A DNA stretch of 37,552 nucleotides from contig JAAXWU010000009.1 of NCBI GenBank assembly GCA_013334855.1, positions 1-37,552 on the forward strand. Direction: 5' to 3'. Each line of letters begins with the position of its first letter. Position 1 is the first letter of the stretch. This DNA comes from Chlorobaculum sp. (GTDB lineage: Bacteria; Bacteroidota; Chlorobiia; Chlorobiales; Chlorobiaceae). Under the pieces are notes generated by a model, which saw nothing but the letters and a program-made list of their open reading frames with translations, was not told where the DNA came from and did not search any database. Positions 10,234-27,040 of the stretch are shown piece by piece. Position numbers and translations under genes: made by a program.

Positions 10234-10857
10234 TCAGGAGGCGGAATTCTCGTCGATCACGCTTTCGATCAGGCTGTTGAGGTCGTCGGGCTGACGACTG
10301 TCCTGAACGTCGAGAATGCGCACGCCGGTGGCGAAGCGCTTGTCGTAATAGCTTTCGTTGAGGGTGTCGCGGGTGATGCCTTTGGAGAGGGAGGAGTGGA
10401 CGAAGGTGTCGTTGCCGACGAAGATGCCGACGTGGTTGATGCGGTTTTTGCCATTCTTGAACAGCACCAGGTCGCCGGGTTTGAGTTCGCTTCGTGATAC
10501 TTTCTCGCCCATCGTCGCCATCTCTTGTGAAGAGTGAGGGAGCTTGACGTCGAGCGTTTTATTGAACATGTAGCTGACGAAGCCCGAGCAATCGAAGCCT
10601 GAAGGGCTGTCGCCGCCGAAGCGGTAACGGATGCCAAGATATTGCTTTACGTCGGTGAAAAGATTCTGGATGCTTTCAACCGATTTCCTGACCGGTGAGA
10701 ACATACTGGTTGACGGCGTGGATTGATCCGCTTCGGTTGCCTCGTCGGCAGCCATGAGCGCGGGGGAGTTGAAGATCAGCGAAGCGGCAACGGTGGCGCA
10801 AATCGTTAGACTTTTCAGAATCTGATGGTATGGCCGGGTTTGCTGCTCTGCTCGCAT
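10234..10857 (-). CDS. NlpC/P60 peptidoglycan endopeptidase
   Basis: 207 residues. An N-terminal signal peptide ends near LMAADE, then a linker, then an NlpC/P60 domain from about residue 70. Catalytic Cys90 lies in FDCSGFV, His142 in NHVGIFVG, and a third polar residue is likely His154 in FVHSSLSKGI. The motif order and the RYRFGGDSPSGFDCSG lead-in match gamma-D-glutamyl-meso-DAP endopeptidases of the Spr/MepS type, which cut cell-wall cross-bridges in the periplasm. The C-terminal extension after VRILD is short and acidic. There is no lipobox, so the protein is probably soluble. Confidence 0.92.
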   Translation of the reverse strand: MRAEQQTRPYHQILKSLTICATVAASLIFNSPALMAADEATEADQSTPSTSMFSPVRKSVESIQNLFTDVKQYLGIRYRFGGDSPSGFDCSGFVSYMFNKTLDVKLPHSSQEMATMGEKVSRSELKPGDLVLFKNGKNRINHVGIFVGNDTFVHSSLSKGITRDTLNESYYDKRFATGVRILDVQDSRQPDDLNSLIESVIDENSAS

Positions 10858-10929
10858 AAAAATCTATGGATTGTTCAACTTCCGTGCGAAACGGAGATTG
10901 ATAGTGTTAATGCATTGTTTTTCAGGATG

Positions 10930-13173
10930 TTACATTTTAGGACTCTTTTCGTGATTATCCAAACCTTTTTCACGCCGTTGCCGTGTTTTTCTAAGCTTTT
11001 TCCTGACTTTTAACTGATTTATTTTCATGAAAACCGATACTTCGTCACTGATTTTACGGATAGTCGCGGCACCAAGCGGAAAATATTTCGGCGCGACCAC
11101 GTCGCCGTAACCCTCCTCGATGCCTTTGGAGTCGAACTGCGCCGGATAGATCATGATTTTACTGATACCGGCCAGATGCTTTTCGAGCCGGTCAGGCAGA
11201 TGGTCGAAGCTCATTCTCCAGGAGATCGACTCCCGGCGGGCGGTGATGAAAACGATGATGTCATCCTCCCTGAATTGAGACTTCTGTTTCGAAACATCCT
11301 CCCAATCCCGGAAGCTTTTGTACGGCTCGTACAGAACCGGCGTCGCAGAGGGCATTTTTTTCAGCGCTTCGGCAATGGCAATGCGGCTTTTGCGGTCGCA
11401 ATGGAGTTGCAGCGCAATGCCGAGCTCCTGCGACAGGCGGCTCATTATACGCAGCCACTGCTCGAATCCCTTCTCCTTCTCGACGAGCGGCGGGCAGATC
11501 ACCACCACTCTCCGGTGCATGGCCAGCGGACGGGCGAGCTGGCAGACGAGCGTGGTCTTGCTGGTGCACTCCACGATGCTTCCCGTGGCATCGTTGATCA
11601 TCCGCTCGATGAAGCCATGCCGGGCAGGCCAGTCGAAGATGATCAGATCGGCCTGCGACTCCTTGACGGTTCTGCCGATACCGCTGCAAAAGTTGTAGTC
11701 GATAGTGGCGATAACGTTGATGCGAGCGTCGAGCGAGGTCGCGAAATCGACCACCGGGGCCAGCTCTTTTCTCGCTTTTTTCACATTCGTTTCGGCCTCG
11801 CGGTCATTGGGCACGACGGTCAGGAGGGTCAGCGGATTCGAGGATTTTTTCTCCCGCATCATCACGGCCAGTTCGAGCACCCGTTCAGAGGGCCTCCCTT
11901 CGGCGATGGGCAGCAGAATCTGTTCGCCGGAACCCTCCGGCTCGTTCTCGATTCCGGCAAGAGCGCCGTTCTCTTCGAGCGCCAGCTTCTTCGAGGCGGA
12001 CTCAGTCACCATTGAAGCCACGATGCAGGTCACCAGAATCAGGATGATGGTGCCGTTGAGGATGTTCAGGTCGATGATTCGCGCCTGATAGCCGACCAGG
12101 ATGATGGCAATGGTGGCGGCGGCGTGCGAGCTGCTCAGACCAAAGATGATCTGCCCCTGCGCTTTGGTGTAGCCAAGCAGCTTGCGGGTCGAGAGGGCGG
12201 CGAGCCATTTTCCGACGAGTGCCACCACAGTCAGGACGGCGGCGATAATCAGCGCCATCGGGCTGCTCAGGATCACCCTCAGATCCACCAGCATCCCGAC
12301 GCTGATGAGGAAGAAGGGGATGAAGAGCGAGTTACCGATGAACTCGATGCGGTTCATCAGCGCCGAGGAGTTCGGGATGAGCGGATTGAGGGCCAGACCC
12401 GCCGCGAATGCGCCGACAATCGGCTCTATTCCGGCCAGCTTGGCCAGGAACGCCGAAAAGAAGACGGCGGCCAAGACGAAGATGTAGTGGGCGTGTTTCT
12501 CGTTTTCGAGCCGGGTGAAAAACCAGCGGGCGATGGCTGGCAGCACGAGAAAGACGATGAGCGTGAAAATGGCAATCGAAATGGCCAGGTGCAGCCAGAA
12601 GCTTTGGTCGAGACTGCCCTGGCTGTAGTTGATGATGAGCGCCAGAATGATCAGCACCGCCGTGTCGGTCAGAATCGTGCCGCCAACGGTGATCGCCACC
12701 GCCTGGTTCTTCGAGACCCCCATGCGGCTGGCAATCGGATAGGCGACCAGCGTGTGGGTGGCGAACATGCTCGCCGTCAGGAGGCTGGTGCTGAGGGGGT
12801 AGCTCAACAGGTAGCGGCAGACCGGATAGCCGACGGCGATGGGGATGGCGAAGGTCAACAGGCCGAACAGAATGCTTTTGTAGCGATTTTTTTTGAAATC
12901 GTTCACATCGAGTTCAAGTCCGGCGATGAAGAGAATGTAGAGCAGTCCGATGGTCGAGAACAGCTCCACTGCCGAACTTTTTTCCAGAAGGTTCAAACTG
13001 TGTGGCCCGATGAGCACGCCCGAGAGAATCAGCCCCACCGTGCCGGGGATATTGAAGCGCTTGAAGACAATCGGCGCGAGCAGGATGACGAACAGCACGA
13101 GCGAAAAGACCAGCACCGGATTGGTCAACGGCAAGTGGAATTCCTGAAGAAGCTGACGGTAATAGGGTTCCAT
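10930..13173 (-). CDS. Monovalent cation:proton antiporter (CPA2, KefB-like) with USP-like tail
   Basis: 747 residues. The first 400 or so form a Na+/H+-exchanger fold of about twelve membrane segments, beginning LTNPVLVFSLVLFVILLAPI and including GLILSGVLIGPHSLNLL and GIEPIVGAFAAGLALNP, typical of the CPA2 family. The cytosolic half (about 430-720) contains LLPIAEGRPSERVLELAVMM and DLIIFDWPARHGFIERM, which resemble universal-stress-protein folds often fused to such transporters as nucleotide-sensing regulators. It likely exchanges K+ or Na+ for H+ at the inner membrane. No partner gene (KefG-like) is adjacent. The basic tail KVRKKLRKTRQRREK is notable. Confidence 0.9.
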   Translation of the reverse strand: MEPYYRQLLQEFHLPLTNPVLVFSLVLFVILLAPIVFKRFNIPGTVGLILSGVLIGPHSLNLLEKSSAVELFSTIGLLYILFIAGLELDVNDFKKNRYKSILFGLLTFAIPIAVGYPVCRYLLSYPLSTSLLTASMFATHTLVAYPIASRMGVSKNQAVAITVGGTILTDTAVLIILALIINYSQGSLDQSFWLHLAISIAIFTLIVFLVLPAIARWFFTRLENEKHAHYIFVLAAVFFSAFLAKLAGIEPIVGAFAAGLALNPLIPNSSALMNRIEFIGNSLFIPFFLISVGMLVDLRVILSSPMALIIAAVLTVVALVGKWLAALSTRKLLGYTKAQGQIIFGLSSSHAAATIAIILVGYQARIIDLNILNGTIILILVTCIVASMVTESASKKLALEENGALAGIENEPEGSGEQILLPIAEGRPSERVLELAVMMREKKSSNPLTLLTVVPNDREAETNVKKARKELAPVVDFATSLDARINVIATIDYNFCSGIGRTVKESQADLIIFDWPARHGFIERMINDATGSIVECTSKTTLVCQLARPLAMHRRVVVICPPLVEKEKGFEQWLRIMSRLSQELGIALQLHCDRKSRIAIAEALKKMPSATPVLYEPYKSFRDWEDVSKQKSQFREDDIIVFITARRESISWRMSFDHLPDRLEKHLAGISKIMIYPAQFDSKGIEEGYGDVVAPKYFPLGAATIRKISDEVSVFMKINQLKVRKKLRKTRQRREKGLDNHEKSPKM

Positions 13174-18749: not shown

Positions 18750-19832
18750 ATGTTACCTTATAATGGACAAACAACTATCGACAACCTAAGCACTCACCTT
18801 GCCTTGAATAACTCGAAACTTCACGGGCTGTGGCGGCTGTTGCGCTTCGAGCTGGCGTTCGCGGCGGGGGCTTGTGTGGTGCTGGCCGAGGTGCTGGCGC
18901 TTGGCGGATGGCCGCCGTTGCGGCTGGGATTGTCCGGCTTTCTCAGTGTTTTCAGCATCGCGGCGGCGGTGCTGGTGCTGAACGACTGGTTCGATGTCGA
19001 GACCGACCGCATCAACGCGCCGGCGCGCCCGCTGCCTGCCGGAGTGGTGACGAAGCGTGAGGTGCTCGCGCTGTCGGTGGCCGCAGCGCTCTCCGGTTGC
19101 GCTTCGGCGGCGATGATCGGTTTCAGCGCCTTCATCGCGGCCTGCGTAATGCTGCTGCTGGGCGTACTGTACGACTGGAAACTCAAGCGGTACGGGCTTT
19201 TCGGGAATCTCGTCGTTGGCTTTTCGGTCGGCATGAGCTTCATCTTCGGCGGCATCGCTGTGGGCAATCCGTTCGAGCCGGTGGTGCTCTTTCTTGCCGT
19301 GATGACGATGTGCGTCGATCTCGGCGAGGAGATTGCGGCGGACTCGCTCGACGTCGAGGGTGATCGTCAATCCGGATCCCGCTCGCTTGCCATCATGCTC
19401 GGCGCTGACAAGGCGATGCGCATCGCCGCAGCCGTTTTCGCGCTGGTGATCGCGGGTAGCGCCGCGCCGTTCTTTGTGGGATGGTTCGGCTGGATTTACC
19501 TTCCGCCGATCATCGCCTTCGACGTCATCGTCGCCTACTGGATGGTAGACGACAACTACGACGGCAGCAACTTCATCGTCCGCCAACTCTTCTTCTATGG
19601 CGGCACCCGCGACGAATTCGCCCAAAGGCAAAAGTGTTTGAGCACACTCGCCAAAACCGTAGCAAAACGAAAAGACGAAAAAACGCTGAAAATAGAAATA
19701 GACGAAGAAGCCTTCGACCGCCTCTACGGCTTCCAGTCCCACCCAATCCCCGTCACGCCAGGCCGCAAAATCACCGTCCGCGTCATCAGTCAGTTCGGGG
19801 AGGAGAGCATGAAGGTTCTGGGGATGGGGTGA
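18750..19832 (+). CDS. UbiA-family prenyltransferase fused to type III Mod C-terminus
   Basis: 360 residues. Residues 25-262 are a UbiA-type integral membrane prenyltransferase, closest in style to geranylgeranylglyceryl-phosphate transferases: [12 protein letters not shown] at 78-89 and DSLDVEGD at 198-205 are the two Asp-rich prenyl-diphosphate/Mg sites, with about eight membrane segments. At AYW (about 262-264) the sequence turns into [18 protein letters not shown], then [18 protein letters not shown] and [15 protein letters not shown], which I know as the C-terminus of type III restriction-modification methylases (Mod). The expected last UbiA membrane helix is missing, and codon use becomes A-rich across the join near 19535-19545. 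Whether this chimera folds is doubtful. No ribosome binding site is obvious. Confidence 0.8.
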
Positions 19833-19895
19833 TGTGAACATTCAGAAATGATGCAGTATTTCGTTTTCTGTTATTAAATTTACTTGAAAATCATT

Positions 19896-20462
19896 ATGTC
19901 TGATATTTGGAATACATCAATGATGTTTTTGATAGGTCTTCCGGTTTTTGCGGGCATATATGTCCGATATAAATCATATGGCGATCATTTTTATTGGCAT
20001 ACTTTTCGGGTGACAATACCTATATTTTTTACGATAAGCATAGGATATTCTTTTATTCATTATGCAAACCCACCAGAGGCGGTATTATCGTATAATGGTT
20101 TTGTTGGCGTTTGGATCTATTATTTGATAGGTTTCTTTTTTGTCGGAGCAATAATGACAGATGTATTAAACGGACAAGAGCTTGGTGACGTAGTATTGGC
20201 GATAATCGTTTGTTCTTTTTTTATCGTTGTCGGTGGATTGTTCTCAATAGCAGGTACTCTGATTTCAGGCTTCAATCTTGCTGCCGTGGTCTATTCGGCT
20301 TTTTTTGCTGGTGGTATAGATAACGTGTTTTTCTGGAAGGATATTTTTGATTTTTTTGATATTAATTTGTTTATTATAAGAGTTTTCCTTCTGATTGTGT
20401 CTGCTTTTTCTGGCGCTGTGGAGTTTGTGAGCTATATTCATGATCATGTTCTTGAACATTAA
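19896..20462 (+). CDS. AT-rich multi-pass membrane protein, unknown
   Basis: 188 residues from ATG at 19896; a TTG at 19884 would add four. About five hydrophobic helices alternate with short loops, for example MMFLIGLPVFAGIYV, FRVTIPIFFTISIGYSFI, WIYYLIGFFFVGAIM and VVLAIIVCSFFIVVGGLF. No domain is recognised. Codons are strongly A/T-ending, unlike the flanking core genes, which suggests recent transfer. It sits between two methylase C-terminal remnants, so it may have arrived as cargo at a restriction-modification locus; a role in defence (membrane effector) is possible but only a guess. Confidence 0.6.
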   Translation: MSDIWNTSMMFLIGLPVFAGIYVRYKSYGDHFYWHTFRVTIPIFFTISIGYSFIHYANPPEAVLSYNGFVGVWIYYLIGFFFVGAIMTDVLNGQELGDVVLAIIVCSFFIVVGGLFSIAGTLISGFNLAAVVYSAFFAGGIDNVFFWKDIFDFFDINLFIIRVFLLIVSAFSGAVEFVSYIHDHVLEH

Positions 20463-20639
20463 TACTTTCTCTTGTTTAAAATGTTGTTCATATATATCAT
20501 TTGTATCAGAATGTAAAAGCTTAACAAAAATATCAGGACGAATTTTTTTACCGACTGAAATACCTTTGCTTTGCAGGTGAGAAACAACGCATGGAGGAGC
20601 TGGAGAAATGTGTAGACAACCATCGATGATTCGCTCATT

Positions 20640-20994
20640 GGCGGCTGAATATCTAATCTGTGTCGCCGTAGTTGGCAACCCGGAAGCGCTTGTGGCGATG
20701 CGCTATGAGGACACCAGCGAAGTCCGTAGCGACGGAGCCGAAGGCATAGCCTGCTGGTTCATCGACACCGACTACAACATGGATTCCTTCTTCGTCCGCC
20801 AAGCCTATTTCCTCGGCGCAAACGACCCGTACAAAGCGCTGAAAACAACGCTAAAATCCGAAATCAACGAAGAAGCCTGGTCAACCCTGAACAGCAACAT
20901 ATCGCGCCCGTTCGCCAAGCCGGATACGGGGCGGATTGCCGTGAAGGTGATCAACCACCTCGGCGACGAGGTGATGAAGGCGTATAGAGTGTGA
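20640..20994 (+). pseudogene. Type III Mod methylase C-terminal remnant
   Basis: The open frame starts at 20608, but the family-like part begins near 20700. It reads EDTSEVRSDGAEGIACWFID, then DSFFVRQAYFLGANDPYKAL, then LKSEINEEAWSTL, and ends GRIAVKVINHLGDEVMKAYR with V. I recognise this as the tail of a type III or related adenine methylase. The catalytic part (DPPY motif and the SAM-binding region) is absent, and the DNA upstream is AT-rich and unrelated. The tail differs from that fused to UbiA at 19535-19832, so two distinct mod genes once contributed. GC content jumps back up just over this remnant. Confidence 0.7.
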
Positions 20995-21100
20995 ATATAT
21001 GTTTTCGTATTATAATAATATTTTATAATATTAAAGGTCTCATTTTGATGTGCATTAATATTTTGTTTTATAGTAGATTTTAGGATAAATAAAATTTTAT

Positions 21101-23344
21101 ATGGCAAAGAAAGATACTCAGCTATGGTCTCAACTTGAAAAAGTTGTAAGGTTTGTTGCATCTCATCTTTATAATCGGCCTGCAAATCCTGAAAATGTGA
21201 GCGGGGTTAGATGTGATTGTGTGTTGAAAATTGAACAAGATAGTTGGGTTTTGATTGAAACTACTGTAGAGAAATCATTGGCTAAATTGAGAACAGATCT
21301 TGCTAAATTTGCAGTTATCCGACCTAGTTTAATTGCAAAAAATATTTATCCAAAATGCTATTATATTACGCTTGATGCACCAAATCAGAGTTTAGTTGAA
21401 TCAGGCAAAGAAAATTATATAGAAGTAATGTCAATAAAAGAATTTGGAAAAAAATTATTTAATTATCAGGATTATCAATATTTAAGGTTAAAGAAGCCAT
21501 TTGGGAGCGCTGTAAATCCTTTTTCTGGAGAAATTGACGTTACTCCGTACGCACAAGTTACATATTCTGGCGATAAGGGAGAAGATTATACTTTAGAAGA
21601 TATAGCTGGTTTAATAGGGAAAAATAGACATGTTGTACTTCTTGGCGCATATGGCACTGGGAAAAGTCGATGTGTTCAAGAGGTGTTTAGGATACTCTCT
21701 AATAATACTGATAAGAATTTTCAATTTCCGATTGCTATAAATTTGAAGGAAAATTGGGGTCTTAAAAGAGCTGCAGAAATAATAACGCGACACCTTTCGG
21801 ATTTGGGTTTAAGTGGTCAGATTGATTATTTGATGAAAATATATAAAGAAAATAGCGTTTGCTTTCTTTTAGATGGTTTTGATGAAATAGGTGCTCAGAC
21901 TTGGAGTGATAATCCTGAAAAATTAAAAGATATAAGATATGTTTCTTTGCAAGGTGTTAGAAATTTGGTAGAGGATGTTACTGGAGGGGTGTTGATTGTT
22001 GGTAGAGAGCATTACTTTAATAGTGATGAGGAAATGATAAAGTGTTTGGGCCTTTCAAAAAAAAATCCTGTAATTATAAGATGTAAAACGGAATTTTCAA
22101 CTCAAGAAATGGAATCCTATCTTACAGATAGGAAAATAAATATATCAGTTCCTTCTTGGTTGCCAAAGAGGCCTTTAATTTGTCAGGTGGTTGCTGAATT
22201 TAATATTGTAGATGCTGAGAAAATATTTTCATCTTCAGAGGGAGAGATAGAATTTTGGGAGTTACTTATAAATACAATCTGTGAAAGAGAAGCAAAGATT
22301 AATCCGGTTCTGGATCCAATTGTTATAAAAAAAGTGTTAACCCGTTTGTCAAGAATATCTCGTTGTAAAGTTAATGACTATGGCCCTATTACTTTACAAG
22401 AAATCTATAGGGCTTTTGAGGACTGTACGGGTATTCATACAACAGATGAAACTGCTATAATGCTGCAAAGATTGCCTGGGTTAGGAAGAATTGGCCCAGA
22501 AAGTTTGGATAGGCAATTTGTTGATATCTACTTATTAGATGGGTTAAGGGCAGAAGATTTAGTCGATTCAATAGGCGTACTTGATTTATCAATTATAGAT
22601 GAGAATTGGCAAAATCCTTTAAGGTTTTTTGGTTTAAGATATGTTGGGGCAAAACTTTTAATTGAGGGGAATAGACAGGCTTTTTCTTCGTATTTTAATA
22701 AGGCAAGTAATAGGAGAAATAAGATATTGCTTGGTGATATCGTGGCAAGTATGGCTAAGTTGAGCGATTTGGAAATTGATTTTAATAATTGTGTGATTGA
22801 TGGTACTATTATCGCTGAACTTGATCTCTCTATTGCCATTATAAATAATATCAAATTTACTGATTCTATAATTGAGGTTTTAAATATAGAGAATAATTTG
22901 GCTAGTAATGTGTATTTTTCAAAATGTATAATTATGCAATTATCTGGAGTTTCATCTTTAAGAGGACTACCTTTATGGATTGAGGAATGCTCTATTGAAA
23001 AGTATCAAACGGTTCATACTGTATCAAGAATTCGTGATGCTGATTTTAATGCGGCGCAACTTATTCTTCTTACATTTATCAGGAAGTTATTTCTTCAGCC
23101 AGGAAGTGCTCGAAAAGAGTCTGCTCTTTTGCGGGGTTTAGGAGATGCTGCGAATAAGAAATTAGCGGAAAAAATAATTAAGATTTTAATTAAGGAAGAT
23201 ATTGTATCTACGGCAGATGGACAAGAAGGACTATTATATGTTCCGAATCGGTCAAAAGCTCAAAGAATGAAGCAAATAATGGATCGTCTATCGTTGAGTG
23301 ATGATAGAATATGGCATAGTGTTTCGCAATTAGGAAGTAAATAA
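21101..23344 (+). CDS. NACHT (STAND) NTPase with nuclease-like N-terminus, putative antiphage protein
   Basis: 747 residues, AT-rich. Residues 1-120 contain GVRCDCVLKI, then WVLIETTVEKS (Asp39, Glu53, Thr55), arranged like a PD-(D/E)XK nuclease core but with Thr where Lys is expected, so activity is uncertain. The NACHT module follows: Walker A GAYGTGKS (182-189), Walker B FLLDGFDEIG (255-264), and VGREHYF (300-306) as sensor 1. Residues 350-530 are helical. Residues 555-625 (DFNNCVIDGTIIAELDLS and on) resemble a pentapeptide/LRR-like sensor, and the C-terminus looks like winged-helix. Bacterial NACHT proteins sense phage and trigger abortive responses. The neighbours are restriction-modification and toxin-antitoxin remnants. 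No frameshift or internal stop is seen. Confidence 0.85.
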   Translation: MAKKDTQLWSQLEKVVRFVASHLYNRPANPENVSGVRCDCVLKIEQDSWVLIETTVEKSLAKLRTDLAKFAVIRPSLIAKNIYPKCYYITLDAPNQSLVESGKENYIEVMSIKEFGKKLFNYQDYQYLRLKKPFGSAVNPFSGEIDVTPYAQVTYSGDKGEDYTLEDIAGLIGKNRHVVLLGAYGTGKSRCVQEVFRILSNNTDKNFQFPIAINLKENWGLKRAAEIITRHLSDLGLSGQIDYLMKIYKENSVCFLLDGFDEIGAQTWSDNPEKLKDIRYVSLQGVRNLVEDVTGGVLIVGREHYFNSDEEMIKCLGLSKKNPVIIRCKTEFSTQEMESYLTDRKINISVPSWLPKRPLICQVVAEFNIVDAEKIFSSSEGEIEFWELLINTICEREAKINPVLDPIVIKKVLTRLSRISRCKVNDYGPITLQEIYRAFEDCTGIHTTDETAIMLQRLPGLGRIGPESLDRQFVDIYLLDGLRAEDLVDSIGVLDLSIIDENWQNPLRFFGLRYVGAKLLIEGNRQAFSSYFNKASNRRNKILLGDIVASMAKLSDLEIDFNNCVIDGTIIAELDLSIAIINNIKFTDSIIEVLNIENNLASNVYFSKCIIMQLSGVSSLRGLPLWIEECSIEKYQTVHTVSRIRDADFNAAQLILLTFIRKLFLQPGSARKESALLRGLGDAANKKLAEKIIKILIKEDIVSTADGQEGLLYVPNRSKAQRMKQIMDRLSLSDDRIWHSVSQLGSK

Positions 23345-23433
23345 AGCTTCTTGTAAATCAATTGATTGCAGTTTAATAATGTATTTTAATATTTCTCAAG
23401 GTGATCTGATATTAATGTAAAATAATGTACAAT

Positions 23434-24450
23434 ATGAGATATGTGCTATTGGTGATTTGGTTTTGTATTGCATTTTTCAGTACAGACTTATTAGCGGAAT
23501 CTCAAAACAAGGTCAATACAATAATTTATCTCTCAAAGGGTAAGATATCTTGTTATAACGTTTTAACAAAGACTACAGACAAATCGCTTCTCAATAACGA
23601 AACGGTTGAAAAATTTATTCTATCCCCAACAAAAAGATACCTGGCTTATGAAAAGGTGATTAAATATTATGATTTTTATTATGAAATAGACAATAAAGAT
23701 GAAAAGCCAACAAAAATAGCATTGAGTTCAGTAGTGATTTATGATTTGAGTGATCATAAAAAGATTGCAGAAGTATTTCCAAAAGAAAACGAGTTATTGA
23801 ATATTGTCAAATGGGCTGATGATAATATAATACTTTATAGGTCTGGCGATGAATTGTCGGTAAGCGGGTGGTTCACACTTGATACTACAGGAGTGATTAA
23901 AGATTTGCGCGATTATGAGTTATCAACGACACAGAGGAGTATTGTATATTCACGTGACAGATCAACAATGCTCTCTATCGACAACTCGAATAATTTACAT
24001 ATGATTGATTTACAATCGATGAAGGATACGCAAGTATACAGTTCTGCTAATAACCTTTTAGATTTTAATATGTCATTCGATAAAAAATATATAGTTATGC
24101 TTGAGGTTGTCGATAACCAAAGGTTGACTATTGATAAAGTTACCTTATTATCTCTGGCCGATTCAAAACAAACAGAAATTTATAATGCAAAAGCAGTTGC
24201 AAAAAATGACCCATGCATATCTATTTCTCCTGATGGTTCAGTAATAAGTATTGAACTAAATGATAGCGTGATGATTTTACTCAATACAGTCACAAAAGAA
24301 AAAAGCAGAATTAAAGGGTATGGCGTCTGCTGGATTGATAACAATACCTTTGTTTATAAAAAAAAGTCTGATCTTTACATCTATAATATCAAAAACAAAT
24401 CAGAAAAATTGTTTCATAAAAACGCAAAAAAAGCAGCATCTTTTAACTAA
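23434..24450 (+). CDS. Exported beta-propeller (WD40/TolB-like) protein
   Basis: 338 residues from ATG at 23434 (a start at 23425 would add three). The N-terminus MRYVLLVIWFCIAFFSTDLL is a signal peptide ending near AES. The rest is a run of beta-rich repeats of WD40/TolB style, e.g. VEKFILSPTKRYLAYEK, NLLDFNMSFDKKYIVMLE and DPCISISPDGSVISIEL, suggesting a propeller of about six blades. No catalytic motif is visible. It lies 89 bases after the NACHT gene, is equally AT-rich and probably came with it; a functional link is not shown, and an exported partner would be unusual for a cytosolic sensor. Confidence 0.65.
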   Translation: MRYVLLVIWFCIAFFSTDLLAESQNKVNTIIYLSKGKISCYNVLTKTTDKSLLNNETVEKFILSPTKRYLAYEKVIKYYDFYYEIDNKDEKPTKIALSSVVIYDLSDHKKIAEVFPKENELLNIVKWADDNIILYRSGDELSVSGWFTLDTTGVIKDLRDYELSTTQRSIVYSRDRSTMLSIDNSNNLHMIDLQSMKDTQVYSSANNLLDFNMSFDKKYIVMLEVVDNQRLTIDKVTLLSLADSKQTEIYNAKAVAKNDPCISISPDGSVISIELNDSVMILLNTVTKEKSRIKGYGVCWIDNNTFVYKKKSDLYIYNIKNKSEKLFHKNAKKAASFN

Positions 24451-24559
24451 TCCCTCCGACAAAAAAAATGTACAAATCAGGGGACAATTATTATATAACG
24501 TAGATGAAAAATCGTACATTTGAACCGCAAATGCTCTTGCGCGGAAAATGCGTAATGGT

Positions 24560-24747
24560 GTGTCAAGACAAAAATGAAGGCTGATTGTTTCTGTTCGCCC
24601 TTCGAATAACGAGGATTCGTCATCGAGAGTCCCGACAAATAGGGACGAGGCGATCCATCTTTACTGCCTTTGCCGATTCTGGATGGATTGCCACGTCGCG
24701 TTGCTCCTCGCAATGACAGGGGGTTCACGACTGCTTTCCATTGACAC
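24560..24747 (+). mobile_element. MITE-like element, copy 1
   Basis: A 188-base element bounded by GTGTCAA and TTGACAC. Inside, GATTCGTCATCGAGAG pairs with CTCCTCGCAATGACAG, and GCGATCCATC pairs with GGATTGCC, so the transcript would fold into a long hairpin. It encodes nothing. It shares its core with the copies at 25201 and 34344 but has a different left part (24577-24600). It marks the right edge of the AT-rich region. Confidence 0.75.
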
Positions 24748-24930
24748 GGTAGTGGTTGCGGGAATGAGCGGCAAGGATCGCCGTCAACGTTACCGGAAGT
24801 TGCAGGGCGCGACGTAACAGGCAGCTACTCTTTACTCCGAGTCTATGGTGACTGAGCTGTTGCCGTCAAACGAGGGAGTTTGATTTGGTCGTAAATCAGA
24901 AATATTTGTTGTACGAAAACAGGGAGTGAC

Positions 24931-25179
24931 ATGGGAAAGAGATATGAGATAGGCAATGATTTTTTTCGTGAAAAAATATTGGCTGCCATGTTGTTTGGGT
25001 TCCGTAACGTCAAAAATCCGTCAACCGTCACCGTTCATCCTGAACTCATGGTGAAGATAAGGGAGAATTTCAAGGATAAAGTGATCTCGCCGAAACAGTT
25101 TGGCGATGTGGAGGTGTTTTGCGGGCTGACGGTCATTGAAGATGTGACAAAAGAAAAGGATTACATCTCAGTCAATTAA
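24931..25179 (+). CDS. Small hypothetical protein
   Basis: 82 residues, with a good ribosome binding site (AGGGAGTGAC before ATG). No signal peptide or membrane segment. The sequence has an amphipathic start (MGKRYEIGNDFFREKILAAM) and a beta-like C-terminus (FGDVEVFCGLTVIEDV). I do not recognise the family. It is bracketed by two MITE copies, at 24560 and 25201, which may mean that both flanks moved or that the gene survived between insertions. Confidence 0.6.
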   Translation: MGKRYEIGNDFFREKILAAMLFGFRNVKNPSTVTVHPELMVKIRENFKDKVISPKQFGDVEVFCGLTVIEDVTKEKDYISVN

Positions 25180-25200
25180 ACCTTGAAAAACAATCGTGGC

Positions 25201-25368
25201 GTGTCAAAAGAATAATGACGGGGAGATTCGTCATCGCGAGTCACGACCTGTCGGGACGTGGCGATCCATCCTTTTTCGCTATCGCGCTGAATCCGTATGG
25301 ATTGCCGCGCCGCTTTGTGGCTCGCAATGACGCGGAAAGTACATGACAGTTTGGTATTGACTTGACAA
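25201..25368 (+). mobile_element. MITE-like element, copy 2
   Basis: About 168 bases, from GTGTCAAAAG to TTGACTTGACAA, 21 bases after the stop of the 82-residue gene. Internal arms GATTCGTCATCGCGAG and GGCTCGCAATGACG, and GTGGCGATCCATCC against GGATTGCCGCG, can pair. It is nearly the same as copy 3 read on the other strand, including the stretch GCTATCGCGCTGAATCCGTA in the middle. Confidence 0.8.
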
Positions 25369-25444
25369 TAGTTCAGGCTCGGCGAACGGCTGATGGGCAA
25401 GCAGAAGTGCATCGCAGGATGGATGCACATTCTTCCGTTTCGTC

Positions 25445-25627
25445 TCACTTTTTGATGTAGGCGTTCAGGCCGATGGTTACGGGTTTGCCCTCGATCATGA
25501 CGTTGGTGACGGTGTTGCCGTGGGTGCTGGCGACGACGAGGGTTTTGCCGGATGACGATGGAGTCGGTTTTTCGAGGTCGATTTCTATGCAGAGCTTGTT
25601 GTCCCTGATTTCGACGGTCATGGCCAT
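25445..25627 (-). CDS. Small hypothetical protein
   Basis: 60 residues (or 58 from the second Met). The composition is alternating beta-type: MTVEIRDNKLCIEIDLEKPT, then SSSGKTLVVASTHGNTVTNV, then EGKPVTIGLNAYIKK. It looks like a compact cytosolic beta-sheet protein with good coding bias, similar in style to small conserved proteins found in many bacteria, but I cannot name the family. It ends the minus-strand group headed by the NADH dehydrogenase gene, about 100 bases downstream of it, so it may share that transcript. Confidence 0.65.
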   Translation of the reverse strand: MAMTVEIRDNKLCIEIDLEKPTPSSSGKTLVVASTHGNTVTNVMIEGKPVTIGLNAYIKK

Positions 25628-25729
25628 AGCTGAGATGTTTTGATGGTTAAAGAGATGTTGCCGACTTCAATATACCCATCCGCCGGAGATTCGGAAGCGA
25701 CGGAAATCATGAGACGGATCATCGCATAA

Positions 25730-27040
25730 TCAGGATGATCGGGACGTCTCGGGATCGGCTGGTTCCGCCTTTTCGGGTACTGTTGGATAGAATCTCCACT
25801 CTTTGTTGACGATGCGGGCGCCATGCCCGAAGATGAAAAAGGACCAACCCCATTGCAACAGGACGAAGAGCCTGTGTTTGGCGCCGCTGAGGTAGTACAG
25901 GTGAACCGCGAGCCAGATGAACCATGCAGGCAAACCGGAAAGCCTGACGTTGCCCCGTTCGGCAATAGCGGTGTTTTTGCCGATGGTGGCCATCTGTCCC
26001 TTGTCGCGGTAGACGAAAGGTGTGCGGGGTTTTCCCTGAATATCGTTCAGGATGTTCCTTCCGATGGCCTGTCCCTCCTGAAGGGCGACTGAAGCAAGCC
26101 CCGGAAGAGTACCGCCTTCCGGCAGTTTGAAATGAGCCTGGTCTCCTCCAGCGAACACGTCGGGGTGTCCGGGAACGCTCAGGTCATCACCAACGATGAT
26201 TCGCCCGGTATTGTCTGTCTCGAACCCGATGGTTTTGCCGATGCTGGTAGCCCGGACTCCGGCGGCCCAGAGCACCGTGGCGGCCTCGATTCTGTTGTCG
26301 CCCATCTGCACGCCGTTTTCATCGATGCCGGTAACCTTGCAGCAACTGAGCACTTTGACCCCCAGCCCCGCAAGCGCTTCGGTGGCTTTGGCGGAAAGTT
26401 CAGGGGAAAAAGTATGAAGAATGCGTTGCGCCGAATGAGCGATGAAGATACGCACCTGCGACGGGTCGATATTCTTGAAATACTTCGACAGATAGTGTCG
26501 GCTCATTTCACCGATCGATCCGGCAAGTTCGACGCCTGTCGGGCCTCCGCCGACAATGACGAAGGTCAGCAGTTTTCTTTTTTCTTCGGGATCGAGGGAT
26601 CTTTCGGCGTTTTCATATGCTTCCATGACCCTTCTGCGGATTTCGGCGGCCTGGGCGATTGTTTTGAGGCCGGGAGCGAACTCCTCCCATTCGTTATGGC
26701 CGAAATAGTGATGTTTCGTGCCGCAGGCCATGACGAGAGTGTCGTAGGTGATCTCTCCGAAATCGGTAAAGATGGTATTGGTGAAGGGATCGACCGTCTT
26801 GACAACGCCTTTGAGGACGGTCACGTTTTTATACTTCGACAGCATCATGCGTAGCGGATAGGCAATTTCACCTGCATTGAGTGCCGCCATCGCGACCTGG
26901 TAGAGAAGTGGCTGGAAAAGGTGGAAATTGTGCTTGTCGAGGAGCGTGACCCTTAACTCTTTACGGTTGCCCAGCTCTTTGGCCACATTGAGACCGGCAA
27001 ATCCGCCACCGACAATAACGACATGTTTCATTGAGGACAA
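25730..27040 (-). CDS. ndh: Type II NADH dehydrogenase (NDH-2)
   Basis: 436 residues. The FAD-binding Rossmann motif VVIVGGGFAGLNVA (7-20) and the NAD-binding motif VIVGGGPTGVELAG (161-174) are intact, as are the FQPLLYQVA segment and the LVMACGTKHHYFG region. VFAGGDQAHF near residue 305 is the second FAD contact. The C-terminal AWFIWLAVHLYYL and LFVLLQWGWSFFIFG are amphipathic or hydrophobic and would hold the enzyme on the membrane. NDH-2 passes electrons from NADH to quinone without pumping protons. The tail after VNKEWRFYPT is short and acidic. The related sulfide:quinone reductase family has conserved catalytic cysteines that I do not see at matching places, so NDH-2 is preferred. Confidence 0.92.
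   Translation of the reverse strand: MSSMKHVVIVGGGFAGLNVAKELGNRKELRVTLLDKHNFHLFQPLLYQVAMAALNAGEIAYPLRMMLSKYKNVTVLKGVVKTVDPFTNTIFTDFGEITYDTLVMACGTKHHYFGHNEWEEFAPGLKTIAQAAEIRRRVMEAYENAERSLDPEEKRKLLTFVIVGGGPTGVELAGSIGEMSRHYLSKYFKNIDPSQVRIFIAHSAQRILHTFSPELSAKATEALAGLGVKVLSCCKVTGIDENGVQMGDNRIEAATVLWAAGVRATSIGKTIGFETDNTGRIIVGDDLSVPGHPDVFAGGDQAHFKLPEGGTLPGLASVALQEGQAIGRNILNDIQGKPRTPFVYRDKGQMATIGKNTAIAERGNVRLSGLPAWFIWLAVHLYYLSGAKHRLFVLLQWGWSFFIFGHGARIVNKEWRFYPTVPEKAEPADPETSRSS

Follow-up and report, generated by a model that had tools for sequence, protein, structure and literature searches.

The window, meaning the whole 37,552-nucleotide stretch of Chlorobaculum sp. DNA that was analyzed, belongs to a genome assembly of 2.55 Mb in 233 contigs. 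Its genes include UbiA, SOUL, and type-II NADH dehydrogenase (NDH2), as identified with Pfam. The gene studied here starts with ATG and encodes 747 residues with no internal stops, according to the ORF list and the translation. Its GC content is 0.33 and its GC3 is 0.23, whereas the background GC is 0.53–0.55 and the GC3 of flanking genes is 0.65–0.78. The AT-rich stretch around it is bordered on the left by a DNA methyltransferase remnant. No recognized defense system was found directly beside the gene in the window. The features are listed in Table 1.

Table 1. Features of the NACHT gene and its surroundings, in window coordinates
Feature	Position	Strand	Basis
Whole gene, nuclease–NACHT–beta-helix–winged-helix, 747 aa	21101..23344	+	ORF, full-length homologs, AlphaFold 2
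N-terminal PD-(D/E)XK-fold domain, aa 1–120	21101..21460	+	Secondary structure H-E-E-E-H-E-H-E; Foldseek
E13, candidate motif I acid, invariant	21137..21139	+	Family alignment
D39, motif II, invariant, strand 2	21215..21217	+	Model and alignment
E53-T54-T55, motif III; E53 invariant, 55 = T/S	21257..21265	+	Model and alignment
K62-L-R64, candidate relocated catalytic lysine, helix after motif III	21284..21292	+	Model, alignment; precedents PMC1913061, PMC4909276
NACHT NTPase core, aa 165–330	21593..22090	+	Pfam NACHT; Foldseek NLRC4/NAIP/NLRP3
Walker A GAYGTGKS, aa 182–189	21644..21667	+	Translation and alignment
Walker B FLLDGFDE, aa 255–262	21863..21886	+	Translation and alignment
Helical part behind NTPase, aa 331–556 (476–556 poorly conserved)	22091..22768	+	Model, conservation profile
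Short pentapeptide-like beta-helix, aa 557–638, probable sensor	22769..23014	+	Strands 558–635; weak pentapeptide matches; low conservation
Winged-helix-like domain, aa 641–716, conserved G-R-(K/Q/E)-E-x-x-L	23021..23248	+	Model; weak BlaI wing match, E 0.21
AT-rich imported stretch around gene, limits approximate	20001..24600	.	GC 0.32–0.42 vs 0.53; 19537–25754 without DNA match in five related-genome regions

Several smaller features lie nearby. The remnant at 20608–20994 is the C-terminal part of a site-specific DNA methyltransferase, and plasmid enzymes match it at up to 73% identity. At its end, the UbiA ORF runs in frame into a second methyltransferase tail (19530–19814, 35% similar), giving either a chimeric 360-residue ORF or an assembly join. 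Directly downstream of the gene is an AT-rich ORF (23425–24450) with a signal-peptide-like start. It is present in a single copy in the genome, and its weak beta-propeller match (E 2e-5) was below the cut-off. Right of the AT-rich stretch, an intergenic repeat occurs in two copies (24614–24717 and 25225–25331) that are 78–84% identical. A clean empty integration site was not obtained, because the UbiA and NDH2 genes are not adjacent in related genomes and positions 19537–25754 matched nothing in the five related-genome regions compared.

The NTPase core was analyzed with the translation, the family alignment, and Pfam. The Walker A motif GAYGTGKS occupies residues 182–189, and the Walker B motif, with the preceding cysteine, reads (C)FLLDGFDE at residues 254–262. 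The cores of both motifs were invariant in all 12 members of the family. The Pfam NACHT model (PF05729) matched the 747-residue protein with an E-value of 2.2e-6 and a score of 28.0 bits, which exceeds the curated threshold (26.7). It also matched all 10 members of a ten-sequence family alignment at E ≤ 1. The original prediction, made from the DNA letters, was an intact NTPase core in one AT-rich gene; the ORF, the Walker motifs, the Pfam match, and the GC content all agree with it. The whole protein was modeled using AlphaFold 2 with ten family sequences as input (pLDDT 85, pTM 0.72). With the full model, Foldseek returned NLRC4/NAIP, NLRPs (including NLRP3), and AVAST5. Together with the Pfam score and the invariant Walker motifs, these NLR matches supported the assignment as a bacterial NACHT protein. 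Pfam, NCBIfam, and PADLOC named nothing beyond the NACHT core in this protein; judged by these sequence searches, the family had no prior label.

Full-length homologs were found on an Erwinia persicina plasmid (38.6% identity), in Pseudomonas phage Haddon (27% identity), in a Selenomonadaceae MAG, in Olsenella sp. An290, and on ten IMG/VR contigs. The family comprised 12 nonredundant full-length members; pairs of them shared a median of 35% identity, and 50 positions of the alignment were invariant. Genome contigs were searched with a single sequence as query, not an alignment, and the genome coverage was thin. In samples of genomes, a full match was present in 1 of 86 genomes of the host family and in 1 of 394 of the host phylum, both being the host itself. 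The counts were 1 of 189 for the family of the Selenomonadaceae genome and 1 of 140 for that of the Olsenella genome. Besides the host, 19 of the 86 host family genomes matched over about residues 103–311 only, through distant NACHT proteins. Viral sequences searched with the single protein as query gave no match, and a DNA comparison with two members found no close relatives in E. coli. In a plasmid tblastn search, family members alone reached useful E-values. The family is rare, patchy, and horizontally spread.

Nine domains encoded in the host genome pass the Pfam cut-off for NACHT. They are located on contigs C13, C70, C82, C100, C143, and C181 and in the window, and C181 holds three of them.

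Residues 1–135 were modeled alone using AlphaFold 2 (pLDDT 86, pTM 0.77). The core order of the model was helix, three strands, helix, strand, which is that of the PD-(D/E)XK core. Foldseek analysis of the isolated domain indicated that almost all top matches were PD-(D/E)XK nucleases, among them BspD6I nickase subunits, arenavirus endonucleases, Card1, Can2, Cdn1, and EndoMS; the scores were modest (best E 9e-4, TM-score about 0.36–0.59). A profile of the domain had a single match among PDB sequences, adiponectin, which was spurious. By these models, residues 1–120 adopt a PD-(D/E)XK fold, and the nuclease-like N-terminus read earlier from the letters was borne out by structure prediction.

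Five charged residues within residues 1–120 were invariant in the 12 members: E13, D39, E53, K62, and R64. Each of them is a candidate for the active site. D39 and E53 supply the acids of motifs II and III. The motif-III lysine is missing; every one of the 12 members has T or S at position 55. The PD-(D/E)XK superfamily includes known variants without this lysine. The D...ExT pattern first noticed at the N-terminus corresponds to D39 and E53-T-T55, and its conservation across the 12 members, whose median pairwise identity is 35%, excluded a chance origin. It had been described as an altered nuclease motif. The ExT is real, but it is conserved and has precedents (DUF1626, PMC1913061). K62 and R64, which the original prediction did not mention, are both located on the helix after motif III in the model. 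DUF1626 nucleases have a motif-III threonine and basic residues in the next helix (PMC1913061), and the Hantaan and influenza endonucleases deploy their catalytic lysine from a helix (PMC4909276). Because of these precedents and the invariance of E13, D39, E53, K62, and R64, we favor an active nuclease with a migrated lysine. On the model and these analogies, the domain is quite probably such an enzyme, with K62 in the predicted role of the lysine.

Alternatively, the N-terminal domain could be an inactive restriction endonuclease (iREase) that binds nucleic acid or nucleotides as a sensor or adaptor, with the response coming from another part of the protein or from another protein. The replacement of the motif-III lysine by T or S in every member would fit this explanation, and a published proposal casts inactive REases that are paired with NTPases as nucleotide sensors (PMC12839542). 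In addition, the Pfam family of NACHT-associated inactive restriction endonucleases (NA-iREase1, PF22722) matched a Chlorobiaceae cousin, a ParA-Mrr-NACHT protein, with an E-value of 2.7e-5. However, the window protein had no NA-iREase1 match at E ≤ 1. It contains no second effector domain and has no conserved partner gene. E13, D39, E53, and K62/R64 are also invariant at 35% median identity, whereas loss would be expected in an inactive enzyme. We consider the inactive form unlikely.

The C-terminal part was examined with the AlphaFold 2 model and a family profile. The model contained seven beta strands between residues 558 and 635. In the comparison of the family profile with the PDB, pentapeptide-repeat proteins were the best matches for residues 552–614, but they were weak (E 0.02–0.2). 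Pentapeptide or leucine-rich repeats had been proposed for residues 555–625. The region is pentapeptide-like, as indicated by the seven strands and the profile matches; leucine-rich repeats were ruled out by the short strands and the pentapeptide matches. A winged-helix-like domain (about residues 641–716), absent from the original prediction, follows. It is formed in the model by helices 651–665, 673–677, and 686–698 and strands 702–707 and 710–715. Its BlaI match with the family profile was weak (E 0.21).

The mean pairwise identity was 41% in the NTPase and 37% in the winged helix, and it was 25% both in the helices of residues 476–556 and in the beta-helix. Between two homologs (L026 and L027), the beta-helix was 35% identical, whereas the other parts were 52–76% identical. 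The beta-helix ranks with the most rapidly evolving segments, which is what a sensor would show, in line with the solenoid sensor region proposed at the outset. From this conservation profile, the fast-evolving region of residues 476–638 probably follows a sensor pattern; relaxed constraint would look alike.

The neighborhoods of the homologs were compared. The homologs of phage Haddon and of L031 adjoin an integrase, and that of the Erwinia plasmid (L021) is near an integrase and repE. P2-like prophages carry homologs together with GpU (L029) or with terminase and portal genes (L038). Two further homologs adjoin a terminase gene (L026) and a tail-collar gene (L032). No obvious phage genes adjoin the Selenomonadaceae (L023) and Olsenella (L024) homologs. 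P2-like phages carry hotspots of antiviral genes (PMC9122126). The occurrence in prophages and plasmids of unrelated bacteria suggests that the protein may protect against phages or rival mobile elements.

On the Erwinia plasmid, the gene lies upstream of an integrase that is 80% identical to an E. coli IncF plasmid integrase. On the E. coli IncF plasmids (L052/L053), a different NACHT gene occupies the corresponding place by the integrase, near a replication gene. As these 80% identical integrases are preceded by different NACHT genes, the integrase-linked site is suggested to be a plasmid hotspot for NACHT genes. In one of the P2-like prophages (L038), the NACHT gene is followed by a DUF3644 gene (10398–11645), and a close relative (L039) has an ORF equal in size at this position.

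No neighbor gene recurred outside related phages, so the protein probably acts alone. Partner genes, including the ORF at 23425–24450, were dropped on this ground, and that ORF has no plasmid homolog.

A mobile-element gene without a defense role, such as a prophage or plasmid maintenance regulator whose winged helix binds DNA, would also be compatible with the well-conserved winged-helix-like C-terminus and with the several members that adjoin integrase or replication genes. However, phages of unrelated types carry members, and others lie outside obvious mobile elements, with no shared partner. Their effector–STAND–sensor layout is typical of defense proteins. A role other than defense is quite improbable in our judgment.

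We consider it likely that the protein is a single-gene STAND-type receptor directed against phages or mobile elements and spread horizontally. Its proposed mechanism is borrowed from bNACHT25/32 and from STAND biology. At rest, as in NLR and other STAND proteins, the protein would be autoinhibited, its NACHT domain holding a nucleotide. The C-terminus would read a signal from the phage or the infected host, most likely through residues 476–638 as judged from the conservation profile, with the winged helix assisting. The NACHT domain would then oligomerize in an ATP-dependent manner and bring the N-terminal domains together. The PD-(D/E)XK domain, with E13, D39, E53, and K62/R64, would thereby become an active metal-dependent nuclease. 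By analogy with bNACHT25/32, it would cut DNA, possibly RNA, and the infection would be aborted.

The NLR immune receptors of animals are related to bacterial NACHT proteins, whose triggers are mostly obscure. The family described here is compact, is encoded by a single gene, has members in a sequenced Pseudomonas phage and on a plasmid, and has a short, fast-evolving candidate sensor. The trigger and the sensor could be mapped by phage genetics. The nuclease offers a clean test case for a PD-(D/E)XK immune-receptor enzyme that would work with a lysine in the next helix. More tentatively, the family may form a separate, undescribed NLR-like clade, borne mainly by temperate phages and plasmids for use against rivals, with an E...D...ExT...K/R nuclease and a beta-helix beside the winged helix as the putative trigger reader.

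A close functional comparison is with bNACHT25 and bNACHT32. Their N-terminal PD-(D/E)XK domains are DNases, the D48A mutation abolishes defense, and infection leads to DNA loss (PMC12169576). These clade 6 proteins, whose antiphage activity was tested in E. coli, likewise have PD-(D/E)XK followed by NACHT in a single protein (PMC12169576). The original prediction was that the domain order, with an altered nuclease motif, may be an uncharacterized type; the databases do name only the NACHT core, but the nuclease–NACHT order is known from bNACHT25/32 (PMC12169576). This shared order raises the option of a defense protein as proposed, but one that belongs to a known bNACHT clade such as clade 6, which would be compatible with our preferred explanation. 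By their published description, bNACHT25/32 differ in having NCH1 C-termini and needing DnaJ, whereas the window family has a beta-helix, a winged helix, and an ExT/S motif III. No NCH match was found in Pfam at E ≤ 1, the presence of the NCH1 model among those searched being unconfirmed. The SNaCT domain of bNACHT clade 14 had no match in the family, though in the same library SNaCT5 matched another plasmid NACHT protein used as a control. PADLOC 2.0.0, including AVAST, gave no credible match; the best was mad8 at 0.0075, in the NTPase part only, and other family members had none except one fragment at 0.007. With the plasmid tblastn result, these differences make membership in a described clade conceivable but rather doubtful.

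Within the host family, the Chlorobiaceae ParA-Mrr-NACHT STAND proteins (L002–L020) have a nuclease, a linker, and a NACHT domain co-linear with residues 1–316 at 24–27% identity. The hhalign comparison of the nuclease parts gave weak support for homology (probability 63%). These proteins differ in their extra N-terminal ParA-like domain and in their Mrr-type nuclease, in which several have the canonical ECK and others ECV; one of them (L004) carries pentapeptide and WD40 repeats at the C-terminus. They are very large and widespread in the host family, and some copies are short, with ECV replacing ECK.

We know of no NACHT fusions of DUF1626-type nucleases. These nucleases, likened here by description, share the motif-III threonine and the basic next helix with the window family (PMC1913061). 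The arenavirus endonucleases matched by Foldseek resemble the N-terminal domain in structure only, and the viral enzymes cut RNA. In the Hantaan enzyme, 14 residues separate E110 from K124, whereas 9 separate E53 from K62 in the window protein. Animal NLRs (NLRC4, NAIP, and NLRP3) and AVAST5 have the NACHT/STAND core and the subsequent helices in common with it, whereas their effector and sensor domains differ.
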